A DNA stretch of 64,000 bases from Cellulomonas sp. JH27-2. Its GTDB lineage: Bacteria > Actinomycetota > Actinomycetes > Actinomycetales > Cellulomonadaceae. The notes under the pieces are model-generated. The model was not told the DNA's origin, did not search any database, and saw nothing but the letters and a program-made list of their open reading frames with translations. Position numbers and translations under genes: made by a program. Shown here piece by piece: positions 5,113-19,933 of the stretch. Each line of letters starts with the position of its first letter. Position 1 is the stretch's first letter. The stretch covers positions 372,001-436,000 of the forward strand of contig NZ_JACYFR010000003.1 in NCBI RefSeq assembly GCF_014837175.1, written 5' to 3'.

Positions 5113-6861
5113 ATGGAGCGGATCGGGCTGACGCCGGGGTCGGAGATCGGCGGGTACACCGTCGTGGCTCCGCTGGGCTCGGGCGGCATGGGGACGGTGT
5201 ACCGGGCGGTCGACGGCGGCGGCACGGCCGTCGCGCTCAAGCTGCTCCACCCGCACGTGGGGGCCGACGCGACGGCGCGCGAGCGGCTGCGGCGCGAGGT
5301 CGCCGCCCTGCAGCGGTTGCGGCACCCGGCGGTGGCCGCGGTCCTGGACGCGGAGGCCGACTCGACCGAGGCGTTCATCGTCACCGAGCTGGTGGACGGC
5401 GAGAACCTGGCCGACCACGTGCGCGAGCGCGGGCCGCTGGACGCCGACGACCTCCTGACGCTCGCGACCGGGCTGCTCGACGCGCTCACGGCCGTGCACG
5501 GGGCGGGCGTGGTGCACCGCGACCTCAAGCCGTCGAACGTCCTGGTGACCGACGACGGCCCGGTGCTCATCGACTTCGGCATCGCGCAGGCGGCCGACGA
5601 CCCCGAGATCACGTCGACCGGGCTCGTGGTCGGCTCGCCGGGGTACCTCGCGCCCGAGCTGCTGGACGGCGGCGAACCGTCCGCGGGCAGCGACCTGTGG
5701 GGGTGGGCCGCGGTGCTCGCGTTCGCGGCGACGGGTCGGCCCCCGTTCGGGTCGGGTCGGCTCGAGGGGGTCCTGGCGCGCTCGAGCGCCGGGGAGGTGG
5801 ACGTCGACGGGCTCGGCGTCCTGACCGCCGCGACGCTGCACGGTGCCCTCGCGCCGGACGCCGACGAACGGACGTCGCCCGACGACGTGATCGCCGCGCT
5901 CACCGCCGTCGCGGCCGAGGGTGACCTGCCGCCCGACGAGGACGGCACCGTCGTGATGGACGCGGGGATCGCCGCCGCCGTGCCGCTGGCCGGCGCCACG
6001 ACGGTGATCGCCGCCGAGGACCCGCCGACGGCGGAGGTCGCGCTGCCGGCCGGTGAGACGACGGTGCTCGTCGCCCCGGACACCGCCGACGCGCACGACG
6101 GCCGGACGGTCGCGATGCCGGTGGATCTCACCAAGCCTGACGAGGTCGACGACTTCGACGAGGACGGCGAGGAGGATCCCGACAGCGTCGACTGGATCGA
6201 GGACGACCTCGACGCGAGCGAGGGCCGTGGCCCGGAGGGCTCCGGCTACGTGCGGCCCCCGGCCCGGCGGCGCTGGGGCTCTGTCCTCGCGCTGGGCCTG
6301 CTGGTCGGGACGGCCGCGATGCTCTTCCCGCTCGTCGTCCTGCTCGTCGTCGGCGCGCTGCTGCTCGTCGAACGGGCCATCGGCTCGACGGTCGAGGCGA
6401 TGCACACGCGCCGCGAACGGGCGGGGGTGCGGCGCTCCGACGCCGCACGCGCGGCGGCCGCGAGCCCCTGGCACCTGCTGCGGGCGGCGTTGGGGCTGGT
6501 CCCGGCGCTGCTGGTGGCGGGCAGCGTCCTCGTCATCGTGGTCGGGGTCGTGTGGTGGCTGTTCGACCAGGGCACGTGGGTGCTCGGCGACCTGACGTCG
6601 GGCGACGTCGTGACCGGGCTCGAGGCGTCGATCCTGTGCGGGTCCCTGGTGCTGCTCGCGGTGCTCATCGTGTGGTTCGGGCCGCTGTCGCACATGACGC
6701 GGACCGGCGCGAGGCGGGTCCTGCACGTCGTGGCCCCCGGCCGGCTGGGGGCGGCGGTGCTCGTGCTGGTGTGCCTGATCGGGTCCGCGATCTTCGTCTC
6801 GCTGGCCGTCAACGGCGCCGACATCACGTGGTGGCCGCTCGACGCACCCACCTATCCCTGA
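5113..6861 (+). CDS. Serine/threonine protein kinase with multi-pass membrane tail
   Basis: Residues 1 to about 270 form a Hanks-type kinase. They contain the Gly-rich loop GSGGMGTVY (22-30), the ATP-anchoring Lys43 in VALK, the catalytic loop HRDLKPSN (Asp137) and DFG (154-156). An acidic linker of about 110 residues follows (DDFDEDGEEDPD). The last 190 residues hold about five hydrophobic segments (for example VLALGLLVGTAAMLF and VLIVIVGVVWWLF region). There are no PASTA repeats, unlike PknB. TACGGT lies 8 bases before the ATG, together with a weak AGGGG. A signal-transducing membrane kinase is clear; its signal is unknown. The next two genes on the same strand code for a small membrane protein and a DsbA-like protein. 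Confidence 0.9.
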   Translation: MERIGLTPGSEIGGYTVVAPLGSGGMGTVYRAVDGGGTAVALKLLHPHVGADATARERLRREVAALQRLRHPAVAAVLDAEADSTEAFIVTELVDGENLADHVRERGPLDADDLLTLATGLLDALTAVHGAGVVHRDLKPSNVLVTDDGPVLIDFGIAQAADDPEITSTGLVVGSPGYLAPELLDGGEPSAGSDLWGWAAVLAFAATGRPPFGSGRLEGVLARSSAGEVDVDGLGVLTAATLHGALAPDADERTSPDDVIAALTAVAAEGDLPPDEDGTVVMDAGIAAAVPLAGATTVIAAEDPPTAEVALPAGETTVLVAPDTADAHDGRTVAMPVDLTKPDEVDDFDEDGEEDPDSVDWIEDDLDASEGRGPEGSGYVRPPARRRWGSVLALGLLVGTAAMLFPLVVLLVVGALLLVERAIGSTVEAMHTRRERAGVRRSDAARAAAASPWHLLRAALGLVPALLVAGSVLVIVVGVVWWLFDQGTWVLGDLTSGDVVTGLEASILCGSLVLLAVLIVWFGPLSHMTRTGARRVLHVVAPGRLGAAVLVLVCLIGSAIFVSLAVNGADITWWPLDAPTYP

Positions 6862-8423: not shown

Positions 8424-8497
8424 GCCTCCTTAGCTCAGTCGGCCAGAGCACCTGTCTTGTAAACAGGGGGTCGTCGGTTCGAATCCGACAGGGGGCT
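8424..8497 (+). tRNA. tRNA-Thr, anticodon UGU
   Basis: The 74-base cloverleaf folds by eye. The acceptor stem is GCCTCCT with AGGGGGC (one G-T pair). The D arm is GCTC/GAGC. The anticodon stem CCTGT/ACAGG carries the loop CTTGTAA, which gives anticodon UGU and reads ACA. The T arm is GTCGG-TTCGAAT-CCGAC. The discriminator base is T and CCA is not encoded, which is common in Actinobacteria. Confidence 0.97.
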
Positions 8498-8524
8498 CCG
8501 ATACGTCTCGCCTACGCGAGCCGA

Positions 8525-12039: not shown

Positions 12040-12711
12040 TCAGTGCGCGGGGCCGGTCTCCTCGAGCAGGCGCAGCGTCGCGCTGACGCGGGGGTTGCGC
12101 TGAGGGTCGGCGTCGATGCCGAGCGTCGCGTACATCGCGTTGACGTGGTTCTGTACAGACTTCTCGGTGATGCCCAGACGCTCGCCGATGCCGGCGTTCG
12201 ACAGGCCTGCGGCCAGCAGCCTCAGCACCTCGTACTGACGGTCAGTGAGCCGGGCGACGTCCGAGCCCGCGCGCGGCGTCATCCGCGCCAGCAGTGCCGG
12301 GTCCAGGACGGTCTCGCCGACGGCAGCCGCGCGCACGGCGCCGACGAGCACCTCCTCCGTCGTCGTCGACGTCTTGGACAGGTACCCCCACCCTGCGGCC
12401 ACGTCCTGCGGGAGGTCGAGGAGCAGGTCCATCGCATCGTGCGCGGACAGCAGCAGGATGCCCAGCGAGGGCTGGCGTCGGCGCAACGAGACGCCGAGCG
12501 CGATGCCGTTGCCGTCCGGCAGGTCGATGTCCAGGACGACGACGTCCGCGAAGCCGGCCCGGAACTGCCGCAGCGCCTCGCTCGTCGTGCCGACGGCCGC
12601 GACCACCTGCATGCCGGCGGTGCCGCCCAGGGTTCGCTCCAGCATGGAGCGGAAGAGCGGCTGGTCCTCGACGACGGCGACACGAAGGTGCCGGGTGCCT
12701 GGGATGCTCAT
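12040..12711 (-). CDS. NarL/LuxR-family response regulator
   Basis: This 223-residue protein has a receiver domain at residues 1 to about 125, with the acidic pocket VVEDQ and phospho-acceptor Asp in [13 protein letters not shown]-terminal LuxR-type helix-turn-helix follows ([21 protein letters not shown], then EKSVQNHV). The start is taken as ATG 12711, with a CATACT -10-like hexamer 7 bases upstream and no ribosome-binding site. The reading frame stays open further upstream without a supported start. It is divergent from the histidine kinase at 12795, and the two probably form a pair. The SipW-type operon begins 270 bases past the kinase. Confidence 0.88.
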
Positions 12712-12794: not shown

Positions 12795-13949
12795 GTGAAC
12801 GACACGGCGTTGGCGCAGGCGCGACGGGCCCGCGACGTCCGCGGCGACCGCGTGGTGCTGCTGCGCGGGACAGCCATCGTGGCGTTCGGGTACGCGTTCG
12901 GTGCCGCGCTGCAGGCCGCATACGTGTACGGCCAGGCGATCCCGGCGTTCGCGGACGTGTCCGTCTGGCGCAGGCTTGCCGCCAACGCCGTCGGGGTCTG
13001 CGTGCTCGTCGGGGTCATGTGGGTGCTGCGGGTCTACCGGGTGCACTCGCTCGCACGGCTCGTCGCCGGCGCGGTCGCGGCGTCGCTCGCGTGCGCGGTC
13101 GCGCGCTGGGGTGCGCAGATCGCGTTCGACGTCTACCGCGATCCCTCCCCGAGCACCCAGGGTGCCGAGCTCTTCGGTGGACTCGTCGTCGCGCTCGTCT
13201 CCTCCGGCATCGGTGTGTGGTCGCTCATCTCGCGGCGACGAGCGCGAGCCGCGATCCGCGAGTCCGAGCGCCGGACCGTCCACGCCGAGATGGCTGTCTC
13301 CTCGCTGGAGCAGGAGGAGATCCGCGTCCGCCGTGAGGTCGCCGAAGGACTGCACGGGACGCTGCAGAACAAGCTCGTCGTTGTCGACGCGCGCCTGCAG
13401 AGCGTGCTCGAGCACTCCGGCGACCTGTGCGAACGGGACGCCGAGGCGCTGCGCTGGGTGCGCGACGAGCTGCAGGTGGCCCGTGAGATCGACGTGCGTC
13501 AGATGAGCCGCCTGCTCTACCCGGAGCGGCTCGAGCTGGGCCTCGTCCCGGCGGTCCGTGCGCTGCTGGGCCGGCTCCCGTCCACGATCGCGACGCGGCT
13601 GGTCGTCGGCGACGAGGTGCGCGAGGTCGACGACCCCGTCGGGAGCCGTGTCCTGGTCAGCGAGCGCCTGCTCGCCGTGCGCGTCGTCGAGGAGGGCATC
13701 ACCAACGCGCTCAAGCACGGTCCGGCGACGATCGTCCAGGTCCACCTCCAGGTGGCGGGATCTGCCCTCATGGTGCGTGTCGAGAACGACGGCGAGCTGT
13801 ACGACCCCGCGTCGGCAGGGTCGGCCTCCGGGACGGCGCGTCTGCGCGAGCGTCTCGAGCTCGTCGGCGGGACGGTCCAGATCGCTCCTGGAGACGAGAT
13901 CGGCGCCGTTCTCGACGCCCGGATCCCCTTGTCCGCACTGACTGAGTGA
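12795..13949 (+). CDS. Membrane histidine kinase (NarX/DegS-like)
   Basis: This 384-residue protein has four membrane segments in its first 160 residues and a coiled stretch of about 25 residues (ESERRTVHAEMAVSSLEQEE). The dimerisation box RREVAEGLHGTLQNKLV holds the likely phospho-acceptor His. The C-terminal ATPase domain has an N-box EEGITNALKHG. The start is GTG 12795, with GGGAG upstream. Its partner is most likely the divergently encoded NarL-type regulator. It is the nearest upstream gene to the SipW-type operon, so it may control that operon; this is an inference from position only. Confidence 0.88.
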   Translation: MNDTALAQARRARDVRGDRVVLLRGTAIVAFGYAFGAALQAAYVYGQAIPAFADVSVWRRLAANAVGVCVLVGVMWVLRVYRVHSLARLVAGAVAASLACAVARWGAQIAFDVYRDPSPSTQGAELFGGLVVALVSSGIGVWSLISRRRARAAIRESERRTVHAEMAVSSLEQEEIRVRREVAEGLHGTLQNKLVVVDARLQSVLEHSGDLCERDAEALRWVRDELQVAREIDVRQMSRLLYPERLELGLVPAVRALLGRLPSTIATRLVVGDEVREVDDPVGSRVLVSERLLAVRVVEEGITNALKHGPATIVQVHLQVAGSALMVRVENDGELYDPASAGSASGTARLRERLELVGGTVQIAPGDEIGAVLDARIPLSALTE

Positions 13950-14219
13950 ATGCTTCACCCGTTCGGCGGAGGGACGTCGCCCACAGGGTGCGCATAGGCT
14001 CTGACCTGCTTGTCCGTTCCGTGCGTATACCGGGCGGGTGAAAGAAACCGGCGATTCCGGCGGTGTAGGTGCCAGCACCCAGTCGGACGGTCGTCCAGTA
14101 GCCGATAACTCTTACGTTCGCACCTCGTAGCAACGCTGCTCACGAGCTCGAACGGGTTCTCGGCAAGGCGTCGGGGACTCCAACGTCCCGTCGGTTCATC
14201 GCCTCTCCAGGAGTTCCCC

Positions 14220-14780
14220 ATGGCAACCTCGACCCCCGCTACGCAGTCGGCCGACGAGCGCAAGAAGCGCAAGCGCGGCGCCATCCTCAAGTTCTCGCTC
14301 GCCGGCGGCGCGCTGCTGGGCATCGCGGCCGCCGCGACGTCCGCAGCCTGGACCGACAACGCGTGGTTCACCGCCACCGCCACGGGTGCGACGTTCGAGC
14401 TTCAGGGCCTGAACTTCGCGTCCACCCCTTCCTACGAGGACGCCGACGCGGACGGTACGACCGCCGCGATCGTCATCCCCGACGAGAAGCTCAAGAACCT
14501 CGTGCCGGGTTCCACGCGCACGTTCACGCTGAACATCAAGAACGCCGGCACGGTCGACCAGACGATCGCCAAGAACTACGAGTGGCGGTCCGCCAGCCCC
14601 GCGAACGACTTCGCCGCGGCACCCACGGTGGCCATCACGGGCACGCCGAACGACCTGCACGCCGGCACCAACGCGGACATCACGGTCACGGTCACGACTC
14701 CGTCGGACTGGTCGTCCGCCAACCAGGGCAAGTCGGAGAGCCTCGCGATCGTGTTCACGGGCACCAGCGTCGCCAACTGA
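14220..14780 (+). CDS. SipW-type signal peptide protein 1 (TasA/CalY-like)
   Basis: This 186-residue protein has a basic N-terminus (ADERKKRKRG), a hydrophobic segment and the hallmark AATSAAWTD at about residues 39-47. These features define the alternate, SipW-dependent signal peptides of TasA- and camelysin-type proteins. The mature part is a predicted beta-sandwich with VPGSTRTFTLNIKNAG and a C-terminal LAIVFTGTS. AGGAG lies 6 bases before ATG 14220. The SipW-like peptidase is encoded 31 bases downstream and is the natural processing enzyme. In Firmicutes such proteins build biofilm fibres; the role here is unproven. Confidence 0.9.
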   Translation: MATSTPATQSADERKKRKRGAILKFSLAGGALLGIAAAATSAAWTDNAWFTATATGATFELQGLNFASTPSYEDADADGTTAAIVIPDEKLKNLVPGSTRTFTLNIKNAGTVDQTIAKNYEWRSASPANDFAAAPTVAITGTPNDLHAGTNADITVTVTTPSDWSSANQGKSESLAIVFTGTSVAN

Positions 14781-14811
14781 CACCCGAGAATGCCCTGACT
14801 GAGGATCCCCG

Positions 14812-15354
14812 ATGCGTGCGCTGAGATTCGTGGGTAACGCCGTCCTGACCCTGCTTGCGGTCGTCGGCGTCCTGAGCGTGCTCGTTTGGGGGGCCTCGCA
14901 GCTCGAATACATCAAGCCGCTGGTCGTGATCTCGGGCTCCATGGAGCCCGGGATCATGACCGGCGACCTGCTGGTCGACGTGAAGACCCCGACCGGTGAG
15001 CTCGAGGTCGGCGACGTCGCGTCGATCTACAACCCGTTGACGCAGAACCTGGTCTCCCATCGCATCGTCGGGATCGAGAAGGTCGGCGACGAGCGCTGGG
15101 AGATCCGGCTCAAGGGTGACGCGAACGACGGTGAGGACGCCGCGCCGTACGAGGTCGGTGCGGAGGTCTGGACCCCCAAGGTCCAGATCGCGGGCGGTGG
15201 CACCTTCGTCACCAAGCTGACGCAGCGTTCCGTCGTCGTGCCGCTCGGGATCACGCTCCTGTGCCTCGTCGGGCTGACCCTGCTGCCCTCGTCCCGTGGG
15301 GACGAGCTCACCGAAGAGGTCGTTGAGCCCGAGAAGGAACACGTCGGCACATGA
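14812..15354 (+). CDS. SipW-like signal peptidase I (ER type)
   Basis: This 180-residue membrane protein of the S26B family has an N-terminal membrane segment (about 8-28), SGSMEP with nucleophile Ser43, and SHRIVGI with His83. The His in place of the bacterial general-base Lys is the mark of the ER-type and SipW peptidases. A second C-terminal membrane segment follows (VVVPLGITLLCLVGLTLL), then an acidic tail. It removes the alternate signal peptides of dedicated substrates, here most likely the three proteins of this operon. It overlaps the next gene by 4 bases. Confidence 0.93.
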   Translation: MRALRFVGNAVLTLLAVVGVLSVLVWGASQLEYIKPLVVISGSMEPGIMTGDLLVDVKTPTGELEVGDVASIYNPLTQNLVSHRIVGIEKVGDERWEIRLKGDANDGEDAAPYEVGAEVWTPKVQIAGGGTFVTKLTQRSVVVPLGITLLCLVGLTLLPSSRGDELTEEVVEPEKEHVGT

Positions 15355-15908
15355 CGCACCGGCTGCGCACCGCCGTCACGGCGAGCCTGACCCTCGCGGT
15401 CGTGCTTGCCGTGCTCGGCGCGCTCGCGTGGCCGACGGGCGCCACGGCAGCACCCGGCGAGATGCCTCTGTCGTACTCCTTCGCCGGCCTGATGCCCGGT
15501 GATGCACGGGCGAGGTCGTTGCCCTACCACCTCGCCCGGGACGCCACGGTCGAGCGGGCGGCAGTGACCACCGCTTCGACCAGCGTGACGTGGCGGGCGA
15601 GCCTGTGCGGCTCGGCCGGCTCGTGCGTCGACCTCTTGCACGTCCGAGCCGGCGACGAGATCGCCGCCGGCGACTACACCCTCACCGTCGGCGTGACCGC
15701 CGGTGCCATCCGACCCGACGAACGTCATTCGCTCGCCGGTCGCATCGTGTTCGTGGAACGCCCCTCAGGTGCCCTCGCACACACCGGGAGCGCCGTGCTG
15801 CCCCTCGTGACCTCCGCGGTCGCCTTGGGTCTGCTCGGGCTCCTGATGGTCCTCGCGGCGCGCCGCCGCGAACGTGACGCCACGAGCAGCCTGGAGATCC
15901 GCGCATGA
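15351..15908 (+). CDS. LAHTG-anchored surface protein in the SipW operon
   Basis: This 185-residue protein has an ordinary signal peptide (residues 1-35, LGALAWPTGATAA), a small beta-rich domain of about 100 residues with a likely disulfide (SLCGSAGSCVD), and a C-terminal sorting signal: LAHTG, hydrophobic segment, RRRERD. It would be fixed to the wall by a class E sortase encoded elsewhere. It overlaps both neighbours by 4 bases. It could be the wall anchor for fibres formed by the SipW-type proteins, by analogy with TapA; there is no sequence similarity that I can see. Confidence 0.8.
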   Translation: MTHRLRTAVTASLTLAVVLAVLGALAWPTGATAAPGEMPLSYSFAGLMPGDARARSLPYHLARDATVERAAVTTASTSVTWRASLCGSAGSCVDLLHVRAGDEIAAGDYTLTVGVTAGAIRPDERHSLAGRIVFVERPSGALAHTGSAVLPLVTSAVALGLLGLLMVLAARRRERDATSSLEIRA

Positions 15909-16549
15909 CCCCCGACGAGTCCCCCACGACGACCGCTGCCCGCGCCGCGCGTCCCGCCGCCACGACGTCGTGGCTCCGCGGTCGCCGTTCCGGTGTGCTC
16001 AAGCTGGTTCTGGCAGGTCTGGCACTTCTCGGGATCGGCGCGGCAGCCACGTCGGCCGCATGGACGGATCCCGCCTACTTCGTCGCCAGTGCCGGGAGCG
16101 CCTCCGTCGGGCTGCAGGGCTCGCTGAACGGCACGTCGTGGTCGGACGCGAACACGTCGAGCACCTCGACGACAGTGACCGCGGACCTCGCGATCTCGAT
16201 CCCGGCGGCGACGTTCTCCGGCCTGGTCCCCAACCCCGACAACACGTCGCAGGTCACGAAGTCCGTGACGTTGTACCTCAAGAACACGGGATCGTCGGCC
16301 ATCACGGTCACCACGGCGTGCACGGCGAGCGGGGACCTCTTCGCCGGCAGCACGCCGCTCATCGTGACGTTCGACGCGACCGCGACGACGGCGACCAACT
16401 GCGCCAAGACCCTGACGTTCGCCGCGGGCAGCACCACGGCGCAGACCACCGTGCTCAAGGTGACGGTCCCCGCTGCCTGGCCGTCGAGCTACGCCAACAA
16501 GGCCGGGTCGCTCATCGTCACCTTTACGGGCACGGCGCAGGTCTCGTGA
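15905..16549 (+). CDS. SipW-type signal peptide protein 2
   Basis: This 214-residue protein resembles protein 1 in layout. A long basic N-terminus (WLRGRRSGVLK) is followed by a hydrophobic core and AATSAAWTDPAYF at about residues 48-60. The mature Thr/Ser-rich beta-sandwich contains KSVTLYLKNTGSSAITV and the closing LIVTFTGTAQ. Two Cys (TTACTAS and ATNCAKT) may form a disulfide. The start and stop overlap the neighbours by 4 bases each, showing one operon with the signal peptidase. Confidence 0.88.
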   Translation: MTPDESPTTTAARAARPAATTSWLRGRRSGVLKLVLAGLALLGIGAAATSAAWTDPAYFVASAGSASVGLQGSLNGTSWSDANTSSTSTTVTADLAISIPAATFSGLVPNPDNTSQVTKSVTLYLKNTGSSAITVTTACTASGDLFAGSTPLIVTFDATATTATNCAKTLTFAAGSTTAQTTVLKVTVPAAWPSSYANKAGSLIVTFTGTAQVS

Positions 16550-17397
16550 ATTCCGTGACGACCGCCGGCCGGCCTCCCGGGAGGGAGCGCCGGCTGCGCC
16601 GGCTGTCGGGGCTCGTCGCCCTGCTGCTCGTCGTCGCCGGCGTCGTCGCGACGCGTGCCACGGCCCCGACCTCCGCGGCCTGGACCGACCCCGCGGTCGT
16701 GGTGGCCATGGCGAGCTCCACCTCGTGGACCTCGACGACCGGCAACCCGGTCGTACCCGGGAACAGCTCCACGTCGGTCAGCAACATCGCCTGGACGCAG
16801 AACAACTACACGTCGTCGATCAGCGTGTGCTTCAGTGCCCAGGTCACGACGGCCTCGGCTACGCCAGTGGCGTGGGCCATCGTCATCGACACGTCGCAGC
16901 CGCCGTGGAACGGCGTGACCACGGGTTACAGCCAGCAGGGTGACGGCTACAGCTGGGCGGACAACACGCCCTCGGCAGGCAAGATCCAGATCTCCGGCGG
17001 CTACACGGACAACATGGGAGCATCGGCGACTCAGCCGCGAACCGTGTCGGTGTGCAACTCGTCGCTGCAGCCGATCGCTGCATCCAAGGCCACGGCCGCG
17101 TTCACGACGGCATCCGAGCACGGTACCTGGACCGATTCGCAGGCGTGCATCGTCACGACGGTGACGGGCAACGGCTCCCAGCCCTTCTACTTCAACTGGG
17201 CGGCGTCGGTCGACATGCAGCCGGCGATCGCGAGACTGGTCGGTGGCGTCAGCCAGATCCGTGCGGACGGCGTGCCCCTCGCCTTCAGCCCCGCACTGTC
17301 GGGGGCGGTGAGCTCCTATACGGCGTCGAGCCAGACGGCCTCGGCGATCAAGGGGTCTAGTGCGTACTCCTTCACGGTCTGCGCGTACCACTACTGA
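16546..17397 (+). CDS. SipW-type signal peptide protein 3
   Basis: This 283-residue protein starts at GTG 16546, inside the GTGA overlap with the previous gene; GTG 16555 is a possible alternative. The N-terminus is basic (RERRLRRL), then hydrophobic, then ends in APTSAAWTDPAV, a diverged SipW-type cleavage region. The mature part is longer than in proteins 1 and 2, rich in Ser, Thr, Ala and Trp, with several Cys (SVCFSA, SVCNSS, QACIVT, FTVCAYHY) spaced for disulfides. It ends 4 bases before the convergent SGNH hydrolase gene. It probably is a distinct minor subunit or tip-like component; this is an inference. Confidence 0.8.
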   Translation: MNSVTTAGRPPGRERRLRRLSGLVALLLVVAGVVATRATAPTSAAWTDPAVVVAMASSTSWTSTTGNPVVPGNSSTSVSNIAWTQNNYTSSISVCFSAQVTTASATPVAWAIVIDTSQPPWNGVTTGYSQQGDGYSWADNTPSAGKIQISGGYTDNMGASATQPRTVSVCNSSLQPIAASKATAAFTTASEHGTWTDSQACIVTTVTGNGSQPFYFNWAASVDMQPAIARLVGGVSQIRADGVPLAFSPALSGAVSSYTASSQTASAIKGSSAYSFTVCAYHY

Positions 17398-17401
17398 CGG
17401 G

Positions 17402-18220
17402 TCACTCCACCGGCGTGAGGTCCGGGCGCTTCGGGACGCGAAGGTCGCCGGACGACCGGCCGCGCAGGCGGCGGGTCGCCCACGGGTAGACGTGCTCGCG
17501 GACCCAGGCGGCGTCCTCGCGCATCTTCTGCGTGCGGGGCGTCGGGGGCAGGGGCGTCAGCGGGTCGTCCCAGGCCTCGTCGTCGGGCGTCAGGCCCAGG
17601 CCGACGAGCGCGGCCTGCGCGACGCGCGCGTGGCCCTCGGTGGTGAGATGGATGCGGTCCTCGGCCCACATCCGCCAGTCCAGCAGCGAACGCATGCCCC
17701 ACAGGTCGACGACGTAGGCACCGTGCCGACGGGCCATCGACCAGATGTGCGCGTTGTAGATGCCGACGCGTGAGCGCGTCGCGCGGACCAGGGGGCTTCC
17801 TGCCGCGTCGACCCCGGTGCCCAGCAGCACGTCGATACCGGCTTCGCGCAGCCGGACGACGGCGTGCTCGAGATTGCGGGCCAGGCGGTCGATGTCGGCG
17901 GCCGGGCGCAGGATGTCGTTCCCGCCGCCGACCAAGCTGACGAGGTCGGGCGTCATCTCGATCGCGGCCGGGACCTGGTCGACGACGATCGACTTCAGGA
18001 GCCGGCCACGGATCGCCGTGTTGGCGTAGCTGAGCGGGCTCTGGCCGGCGGCGACGCGGCGCTCGGAGAGGCGTGCAGCGAGCACGTCGGCCCAGCCGCG
18101 GGTCGGGGCGTCCGGGCCGTCGGGTGAGTCCCAGAGGCCTTCCGTGAACGAGTCGCCGATGGCGACGTAGCGGGACCAGCGGGGGGACTCGGGCGTCGAA
18201 CTCACCTCGTCATTGTGCAC
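17402..18220 (-). CDS. SGNH/GDSL-family hydrolase
   Basis: This 272-residue soluble enzyme has block I YVAIGDSFTEG with the nucleophile Ser, block III LVGGGNDILRP, and the late block V region DRIHLTTEGH with the catalytic Asp-His. There is no signal peptide. Family members hydrolyse esters, often acyl or acetyl groups of lipids or polysaccharides; the substrate cannot be told. The start is taken as GTG 18220; GTG 18205 is an alternative and neither has a convincing ribosome-binding site. It shares an upstream region with the HNH gene. Confidence 0.85.
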   Translation of the reverse strand: MHNDEVSSTPESPRWSRYVAIGDSFTEGLWDSPDGPDAPTRGWADVLAARLSERRVAAGQSPLSYANTAIRGRLLKSIVVDQVPAAIEMTPDLVSLVGGGNDILRPAADIDRLARNLEHAVVRLREAGIDVLLGTGVDAAGSPLVRATRSRVGIYNAHIWSMARRHGAYVVDLWGMRSLLDWRMWAEDRIHLTTEGHARVAQAALVGLGLTPDDEAWDDPLTPLPPTPRTQKMREDAAWVREHVYPWATRRLRGRSSGDLRVPKRPDLTPVE

Positions 18221-18272: not shown

Positions 18273-18329
18273 GTGGTTGGGTCCTTTCCCGACGACGACG
18301 ACCGCGATGATCGAGAGGGGGTGGTGAGC

Positions 18330-19748
18330 GTGACCGGCGCGTTGAGCGTGAAGCCTGGCGGCTACGTGACCGTCACCCGGCCCGGTGCGCCCCTCGCGGC
18401 GTTGGTGCCCGAGTACGACGGGCGCGAGCTGCCGACCTTCCCCGTGCCGACGTCCCCCGGTGGTGCCTCGATCGCAGAGATTGCCGGCCGGTTGGCGGAG
18501 CTCGAGGTCGCGGACCTCGGTGCGTTCGACCTCGTCGAGGTGGCGGCCGGCTGGGCGCAGGTCATGGCGATGGCGGCGGCGTACCAGGCGCGGGCCGTCG
18601 GCGAGATGCTCAACCGGGACACGGGCGTGGGTGAGGCGGTCGTCGACGAGATCGCGTGCGCGCTGGTCACCACGGGCCGCGCGGCAGGGGTCGTCGTCGG
18701 TCGTGCGGCGGGTCTGGCGACGTCGCCCGTGCTCGAGGACGCGCTCCTGGCAGGGACCTTGGACGCCCGCAAGGTGGACGTGATCCTCGACGAGACGTTG
18801 GTGCTGCACGACCGCACCTGCCGGGAGTCCGTGGTGGCCGATGCGGCCGCAGCCGGTGCCGGGATGACGGCCCCGCAGCTCGCCCGGTACGTCCGCAAGC
18901 TGGTGCTGATCAACGACCCGGCGAACGGCAAGGAGCGCGCGCAGCGGGCCCGCAAGGATCGCGACGTCCGGCTGCGTTGGATCAACGACAACATGGCCAG
19001 CCTCTCGGCCTTCCTGCCGGCGGCCGACGCCGTCGCGGCCATGACGGCGATCGACGCCCTCGCCGCGGGCGCGAAGTCCGCGACCGACGACCGCACGATC
19101 GACCAGCGCCGCGCGGACGCCTTCGCGGACGTCTTCAAGGGCATCCTCGACTCCGGCACGACGCCGGACGGCACGCTGGTTCCGACGCGGCACGGCAAGC
19201 GGACCTCGTTGCAGGTGACCGTCGGAGCCAACACGCTGCTGGGTCTCGACGACCTACCCGGCGACCTGGCCGGCTACGGCCCCATCCCGGCCTACGTCGC
19301 GCGGGAGCTCGCCCAGGACGCGACGTGGACCCGGATCCTCACCGACCCGGCCGACGGCGCATTCGTCGAACGGGGACGGGTCAGGTACCGCCCGGGTGCG
19401 GACCTCACGGGAACCGTCCTGGCGCGGGACGTGACGTGCACGTTCCCTGGCTGCCAGCAGCCGTCGGCCCGGTGCGAGCTCGACCACGTCGCCCCCTTCG
19501 ACGACACCCGCCCCGCCGACACCCAGACCACCGTGGACAACCTTCAGGCCTTGTGCAAGCACCACCATCAGCAGAAGACCCGGAAGCGTTGGCACGCGAC
19601 GCGCGATCCGGTGACGGGCAACTGCGTCTGGACCAGCCCGGCGGGGATCACGTACTCGCGCTCGCCGATGGTGTTCGAGATGGCGCCCTCCGGGTTGGTC
19701 CACCGACCGCCGCCGCCCGCACCCGAGGACGACTCGCCCCCCTTCTGA
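18330..19748 (+). CDS. HNH endonuclease domain protein (DUF222, 13E12 repeat family)
   Basis: This 472-residue protein has an N-terminal DUF222 region (about 30-310, mostly helical). Its C-terminal HNH nuclease domain shows CTFPGCQQP, the core ELDHVAPF and the metal-binding end LCKHHHQQKTRKRW. GTG 18330 is chosen because GAGAGGGG lies 9 bases upstream; GTG 18321 and 18324 are alternatives. The family is abundant and often repeated in actinobacterial genomes. Its biological role is not settled. The LexA box indicates DNA-damage induction. A tandem repeat follows the stop directly. Confidence 0.85.
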   Translation: MTGALSVKPGGYVTVTRPGAPLAALVPEYDGRELPTFPVPTSPGGASIAEIAGRLAELEVADLGAFDLVEVAAGWAQVMAMAAAYQARAVGEMLNRDTGVGEAVVDEIACALVTTGRAAGVVVGRAAGLATSPVLEDALLAGTLDARKVDVILDETLVLHDRTCRESVVADAAAAGAGMTAPQLARYVRKLVLINDPANGKERAQRARKDRDVRLRWINDNMASLSAFLPAADAVAAMTAIDALAAGAKSATDDRTIDQRRADAFADVFKGILDSGTTPDGTLVPTRHGKRTSLQVTVGANTLLGLDDLPGDLAGYGPIPAYVARELAQDATWTRILTDPADGAFVERGRVRYRPGADLTGTVLARDVTCTFPGCQQPSARCELDHVAPFDDTRPADTQTTVDNLQALCKHHHQQKTRKRWHATRDPVTGNCVWTSPAGITYSRSPMVFEMAPSGLVHRPPPPAPEDDSPPF

Positions 19749-19756
19749 GCCCGCTC

Positions 19757-19864
19757 GCCCGACGCCGCCGCCCGACGCCGCCTGCCCGACGCCGCTGCCC
19801 GACGCCGCCTGCCCGACGCCGCTGCCCGACGCCGCTGCCCGACGCCGCCTGCCCGACGCCGCCT
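19757..19864. repeat. Minisatellite of eight 13/14-base units
   Basis: Eight head-to-tail copies of GCCCGACGCCGC plus C, T or CT fill the space between the HNH gene and ung, starting 9 bases after the HNH stop. Units of 13 and 14 bases alternate irregularly. A degenerate continuation (GCCTGACC) extends to about 19885. The period is not a multiple of three, so the repeats do not encode a regular peptide repeat. Confidence 0.95.
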
Positions 19865-19933
19865 GCCTGACCCTGCCCGCCGTTCCGTCCGGTGCGCATT
19901 CTCGACGTTCGGTGTGGCCGACGCGGGCGTGGG

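Follow-up and report, generated by a model that had tools for sequence, protein, structure and literature searches.

The soil bacterium Cellulomonas sp. JH27-2 carries, in a 64,000-nucleotide stretch of its genome (contig NZ_JACYFR010000003.1, positions 372,001 to 436,000; hereafter the window), an operon of five genes, A–E, which encode an endoplasmic reticulum (ER)-type, SipW-like signal peptidase (B), three exported proteins with an alternate signal (A, D, and E), and a protein with a cell wall sorting signal (C). The operon is real and, apart from some details, as an earlier reading of the sequence (the original prediction) had described it. We consider it reasonably probable that it occupies one genus-wide Cellulomonas locus with a two-component system of its own and a single conserved promoter. 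Together these would drive one out of two or more unrelated fiber or surface modules, each bringing an ER-type peptidase and a signal to match, and whole modules would be exchanged by recombination in the flanks, so that the surface structure changes under constant control, much as at loci for antigens or phage receptors. The window would hold a type I module, and we read this module, with moderate confidence, as one that stands on a conserved regulatory platform, is exchanged as a whole, and gives rise to a TasA-like, wall-anchored fiber. Judged by sequence, the locus is composed of a kinase/regulator pair, a promoter-like element past the kinase, and a module with its own peptidase and predicted substrates; the platform and the right flank are constant.

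The kinase is present in 35 of the 36 genus genomes and in one of 22 genomes of the same order (E ≤ 1e-20). The genes that follow it in 35 genomes of the genus form a type I module in nine, a type II module in 25, and no module in one; with seven further named loci (42 in total) the counts are 15, 26, and one. Type I modules consist of A, B, mostly C (12 of the 15), D, and E. In type II modules, a GVAGLSLASASQL-like signal marks a small exported protein, which is accompanied by an ER-type peptidase of the module's own and usually by a third protein, of the kind found at locus L057 in 18 of 25. The type II peptidase is related to B (hhalign, 99.0%) and reaches 55.4 bits with TIGR02228 in L057; no family was found for the L057 copy of the small exported protein. 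These gene contents come from a simple gene finder, which leaves start positions and very short genes uncertain and for which a missing regulator means that none was called rather than a shown absence; the type II locus of genome G034 lies at a contig end with two genes visible. One genome, G015 (locus L148, near position 6749, minus strand), is a natural deletion in which module and element are cleanly gone and the regulator and kinase are kept.

Pairs of genomes that are close on the kinase tree and carry different modules show where the exchanged segment begins and ends. We compared G023 and C. terrae (type I) with G017 and G021 (type II) in the pairs G023/G021, G023/G017, and C. terrae/G017. 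Identity of about 86% spans the kinase and the element up to 91–114 bp before A, is absent across the module, and returns in the final bases of the last gene, from which it continues through the neighboring gene for a hydrolase, presumably of the SGNH type (named by motif), at 86–88%. The kinase tree as a whole (42 rows, with four end branches flagged as long) requires 10 switches between module types, six or more of which are forced by starred branches; shuffled labels give a mean of 13.1 changes, with 28 of 500 shuffles as low as observed. G018 has a leftover type II peptidase between the kinase and a type I module. This pattern suggests that modules are exchanged as ready-made cassettes in this part of the cell surface. 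Several genomes have two modules around the SGNH gene (I+I in G024, II+I in G032 and at locus L069, I+II at L072, and II+II in G019). Loss from such arrays can leave either type, and the two modules might therefore differ through duplication and differential loss rather than through exchange between strains, an explanation that we hold to be possible but rather unlikely given the sharp borders against flanks of 86–88% identity in G023 and C. terrae relative to G017 and G021. Two points weigh against our reading of the locus: for some of the module changes, loss from tandem arrays is a serious alternative to transfer, and the TasA/camelysin models PF12389 (Pfam) and NF046066 (NCBI) do not report A or D at E ≤ 1.

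The secretion function of the operon is the part that family models and gene adjacency support well, and a dedicated SipW-type system, as originally proposed, remains the indicated one. B exceeds the cut-off of the ER-type signal peptidase I model TIGR02228 (56.6 bits, cut-off 51.85), and across 14 aligned sequences Ser43 and His83, the residues first singled out, never vary, nor do Asp103 and Asp109. The B family profile also finds human SEC11A (4.8e-14). Pfam S26 (PF10502) falls narrowly below its gathering cut-off on B (19.1 vs. 22.9 bits), and the equivalog model of Bacillus SipW, NF046067, stays below its 190-bit cut-off at 44.1 bits. One scan with the B profile across GTDB species genomes yielded 58 loci, of which 42 (L063–L104) bear actinobacterial names, among them Cellulomonas, Cellulosimicrobium, Microbacterium, Leifsonia, Rarobacter, Demequina, Tessaracoccus, Arthrobacter, Actinomyces, and Propionicicella; loci outside this set are mostly from Firmicutes and archaea, and L105–L120 were left out of the annotation. 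The simple gene finder called a B gene in 39 of the 42 (L101–L103 are without a call). Because a gene of the A/D family (E ≤ 1e-3) lies directly 5' of B in 36 of these 39 loci, with one of the other three truncated by a contig end, the A–B arrangement is not due to chance. A pattern matched in 27 stretches of viral contigs, and no B relative is encoded in any of them.

The layout of the operon differs from the original prediction in some respects. Four-base overlaps join B to C, C to D, and D to E; A and B are 31 bp apart by their open reading frame coordinates. Signals of the predicted type can be read directly in A, D, and E (in full APTSAAWTD in E), but the three supposedly different substrates form two families, since D is a paralog of A (37% identity). 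The regulator is divergent as stated; the kinase is codirectional with the operon and ends 270 bp before A.

A wall-anchored TasA-like fiber is our best reading of these genes from their sequences, and the operon probably builds fibers on the cell wall. Profile–profile comparison supports the A/D family as a remote relative of TasA, as the modeled fold does weakly. In hhalign the family aligns to a TasA-like family at 97.7% over the whole length, and the mature parts align at 82–86% over 93 columns (E 6e-6 to 1.1e-5); this TasA-like family itself matches TasA (8aur) at 6.6e-8 over 55 residues. Controls reached at most 20.4% (C, 4.5%; mature C, 15.3%; mature A against mature C, 20.4%), with 0.8% for a reversed control and 0.1% for each of three column shuffles; by profile, then, C is not a TasA relative. 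VIA-align places residues 43..186 of A on residues 28..235 of TasA, both from the mature N-terminus (123 residues, 20% identity), a fold match that is generic for immunoglobulin (Ig)-like sandwiches. The model of the SipW-dependent-type signal family, TIGR04088, does not report A of the window and matches 14 of 39 aligned A/D sequences at E ≤ 0.1, and PDB sequence searches with profiles of A/D, C, and E gave no meaningful match. The first type II protein reaches 66% with the A/D family over 96 columns, signal included, and hhalign does not show its kinship to TasA (30% against the TasA-like family). As proposed earlier, a wall-fixed TasA-like fiber thus finds partial support in the A/D profile match and in the LAxTG signal and class E sortase described below, with the silence of the curated TasA models on A and D as its weak side.

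A, D, and E could also be separate secreted or surface-bound proteins, such as binding proteins or adhesins, that share a signal and a peptidase and form no polymer. We regard this as doubtful, although the generic character of the A fold match would suit it, as would protein E, which by profile is unrelated to the TasA-like family (hhalign 0.2%; type II proteins were part of the E profile), gave nothing above the cut-off in Pfam, and at E 5 had no match in the PDB. It is harder to reconcile with an alignment to the TasA-like family that spans almost the entire length of the A/D family and with an operon make-up that resembles the filament-forming SipW operons known from Bacillus and Clostridium perfringens, as far as these are described in the cited parts of the literature (PMC10151520, PMC7395162).

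Independently of the locus under study, the JH27-2 genome has a second SipW-type locus (L045:1687-5565; G000:C1:226686-230564), which encodes a TasA/camelysin relative (PF12389, 45.1 bits), an ER-type peptidase, and a 98-residue protein, with a GGDEF/EAL protein upstream. The TasA model matches in 14 of 58 genomes (E ≤ 0.001).

For the proposed wall-anchored fiber, C is the candidate point of attachment. Its C-terminus is composed of LAHTG, the motif named in the original prediction, a hydrophobic stretch, and RRR, and among 19 aligned C sequences LAxTG is found in 16, including that of the window, LSQTG in one, and no such signal in two. Curated sorting-signal models stay below their cut-offs on C (TIGR01167, 11.8 vs. 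15.9; NF058583, 24.1 vs. 65). The alignment shows a common domain of about 100 residues, which is modeled as a β-sandwich (mean predicted local distance difference test score, 84) and for which a search for structural relatives gave no clear match. Four sortases exceed the Pfam cut-off in this genome, one of which is clearly of class E (NF033747, 247.1 bits, cut-off 160), and the cited part of one account gives LAXTG as the signal used by class E sortases of Actinobacteria (PMC5148588). Covalent anchoring via C is plausible from these sequence features, and C may be the holder of the fiber.

Based on these components, we posit the following mechanism. The phosphorylated regulator would bind the inverted repeat of the element and activate the TAnnnT promoter, and B would cleave A, D, and E behind a signal of the ATSA|AWTD type. 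Cleavage would free the aromatic N-terminal strand of A, which would then enter the next subunit, as in TasA, to form a donor-strand fiber in which D may serve as a minor subunit and E may be an accessory protein or sit at the tip. The class E sortase would attach C, presumably made with an ordinary signal, to peptidoglycan via LAHTG, and C would hold the base of the fiber. Whole-module exchange, probably by recombination in the conserved flanks, would alter the surface structure and leave its control unaltered.

The regulatory platform is defined by the two-component pair and by the element past the kinase. The regulator is over the Pfam cut-offs as a receiver and LuxR helix–turn–helix (HTH) protein and lies beside the kinase, as expected of a NarL-type pair; the kinase itself reaches 24 bits with the HATPase model PF02518, narrowly below the cut-off of 26.4, and all NCBIfam sensor-kinase models are below cut-off. 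Enrichment of k-mers revealed GGGTGAAA upstream in nine of 12 kinase-linked loci, compared with five for the best 8-mer in 30 shuffle sets. An element profile and a sequence model were built from the same 10 of the 12 kinase-linked type I loci (L078 and L086, poor matches, were left out), and the model was run on 58 genomes (36 of the genus and 22 of the same order) with stricter filters that can lose weak matches. At E ≤ 1e-4 it gave one hit each in 23 of the genus genomes and none in the same-order genomes, and every hit lies 50–226 bp beyond the end of the kinase match. Five of these 23 genomes belong to the training set; since 17 of the other 18 carry the type II module, the element goes with the regulator pair and not with the module. 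This linkage of element and kinase lends indirect support to direct control of the promoter by the pair. Twelve kinase-bearing genomes have no strong hit, and weak ones occur at the expected place in G001, G006, G016, and G034 (E 0.01–0.05).

Spacing within the element was analyzed in 24 of 27 element sequences (G033 and G035, near copies of G026, and G006 were left out), in one of which the search pattern did not match the inverted repeat. A TAnnnT hexamer lies 31–34 bp past the repeat in 19 of the 23 loci that show the repeat, with the same distance in 10 loci against at most three in 2000 shuffles, and 21 loci show both boxes of the element, at a distance of 31–34 bp; neither result is corrected for relatedness. 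We read this stretch as the predicted binding region of the regulator together with a promoter. A structured, riboswitch-like leader RNA is improbable: RNAalifold gives two short hairpins (nine pairs, three with changes on both sides), yet the covariation term is only −0.08, the stability is not unusual (z 0.34), an Rfam scan returned two sub-threshold matches to unrelated families (E 1.7 and 3.6) and with the RNA folding gave a riboswitch no support, and the −10-like hexamer at conserved spacing would place the element upstream of the transcript.

A link between the two module types is provided by E. The third type II proteins of G007 and G012 are 42–44% identical to E over most of its length (phmmer, 2e-38), and the alignment shows them with another leader and with an additional segment at the N-terminal end. 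In some species, therefore, most of mature E recurs in the third protein of the type II module, and one mature domain occurs with two leaders, each apparently placed in the module with the peptidase expected to recognize it. An hhalign comparison of the type II third proteins with the E alignment (100%) is circular, as that alignment contains three such proteins, and was not used.

To our knowledge, most work on bacterial SipW/TasA systems concerns Firmicutes. The literature searched, mostly outside subscription journals, contained no description of a SipW operon of Cellulomonas or of exchange of its cassettes, and no link of class E sortases or LAXTG anchoring to a SipW operon; the single paper that mentions both SipW and Cellulomonas deals with B. 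subtilis. With tapA-sipW-tasA of Bacillus subtilis and sipW-calY of B. cereus, the window shares a SipW-like peptidase beside small β-sandwich proteins with alternate signals, and the Bacillus operons likewise hold a helper protein, according to the cited part of PMC10151520; helper proteins start or steer the TasA-type filaments of Bacillus in the parts of two accounts considered here (PMC10151520, PMC13082335). Unlike in Bacillus, A and D fall below the curated TasA models, control seems to lie with an adjacent two-component pair, and the presumed helper C has a sortase signal, whereas the cited part of PMC13082335 describes the CapP system of B. cereus as sortase-independent. The sipW-bsaABCRSD operon of C. 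perfringens produces extracellular filaments and requires its own two-component system for expression, with regulators inside the operon and, within the cited part of the report, no LPXTG-like sequence predicted in BsaA (PMC7395162); in the Cellulomonas system, the pair lies upstream as a platform for two different modules. TIGR04088 and TIGR02228 have in common with the window the type of signal and the type of peptidase, respectively, and SrtE1 of Streptomyces coelicolor (class E/LAXTG) corresponds to the LAxTG of C and the class E sortase of the genome. What would set the Cellulomonas system apart from known SipW systems is thus the presumed covalent anchor and a shared platform with alternative modules. 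The locus offers a natural experiment in one actinobacterial genus, in which the same kinase and element precede two alternative modules with a peptidase each. It makes testable the co-evolution of signal and peptidase, a sortase-fixed TasA-like fiber, and locus swapping under selection, for example by phages, and it yields a specific promoter element and a regulator seemingly with a single target site.

Table 1. Features of the Cellulomonas locus in window coordinates, with the alternative module for comparison
Feature	Position	Strand	Description	Evidence
Response regulator	12040-12711	-	NarL/FixJ-type (receiver + LuxR HTH)	PF00072 61.7 bits, PF00196 45.7 bits
Sensor histidine kinase	12795-13949	+	Hydrophobic N-terminal half; same strand as operon	PF02518 24 bits (below cut-off); hydrophobic half by eye from sequence
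Promoter-like element	14034-14085	+	52 bp; GGGTGAAAGAA box starting at 14036; inverted repeat GGTGCCAGCACC at 14068-14079	
TACGTT	14113-14118	+	-10-like TAnnnT hexamer	Conserved spacing from inverted repeat
A	14220-14780	+	186 residues; leading small exported protein, signal AAATSAAWTD; remote TasA relative, presumed major fiber subunit	
B	14812-15354	+	ER-type (SipW-like) signal peptidase I, Ser43/His83/Asp103	TIGR02228, SEC11A match, invariant residues
C	15351-15908	+	Exported, LAHTG sorting signal, one β-sandwich domain; presumed wall anchor	19-sequence alignment, model
D	15905-16549	+	214 residues; paralog of A, signal AAATSAAWTD	
E	16546-17397	+	283 residues; GTG start, signal TSAAWTD	
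SGNH hydrolase (presumed)	17402-18220	-	Convergent neighbor of operon; 3' end is right border of exchanged segment	
Type II module	L057:4483-6615; most of loci L139-L160		Small exported protein, own peptidase, usually L057-type third protein	

Between the SGNH hydrolase gene and a uracil-DNA glycosylase gene, the window has a further gene (18321-19748), which is putatively HNH-like; most relatives have no gene at this place, and G030 has one of similar size. Just past it lies a tandem repeat (19751-19871) of three copies of a 40-bp unit with 93% matches. A tRNA-Thr (tgt) at 8424-8499 was the sole RNA gene identified in the window.

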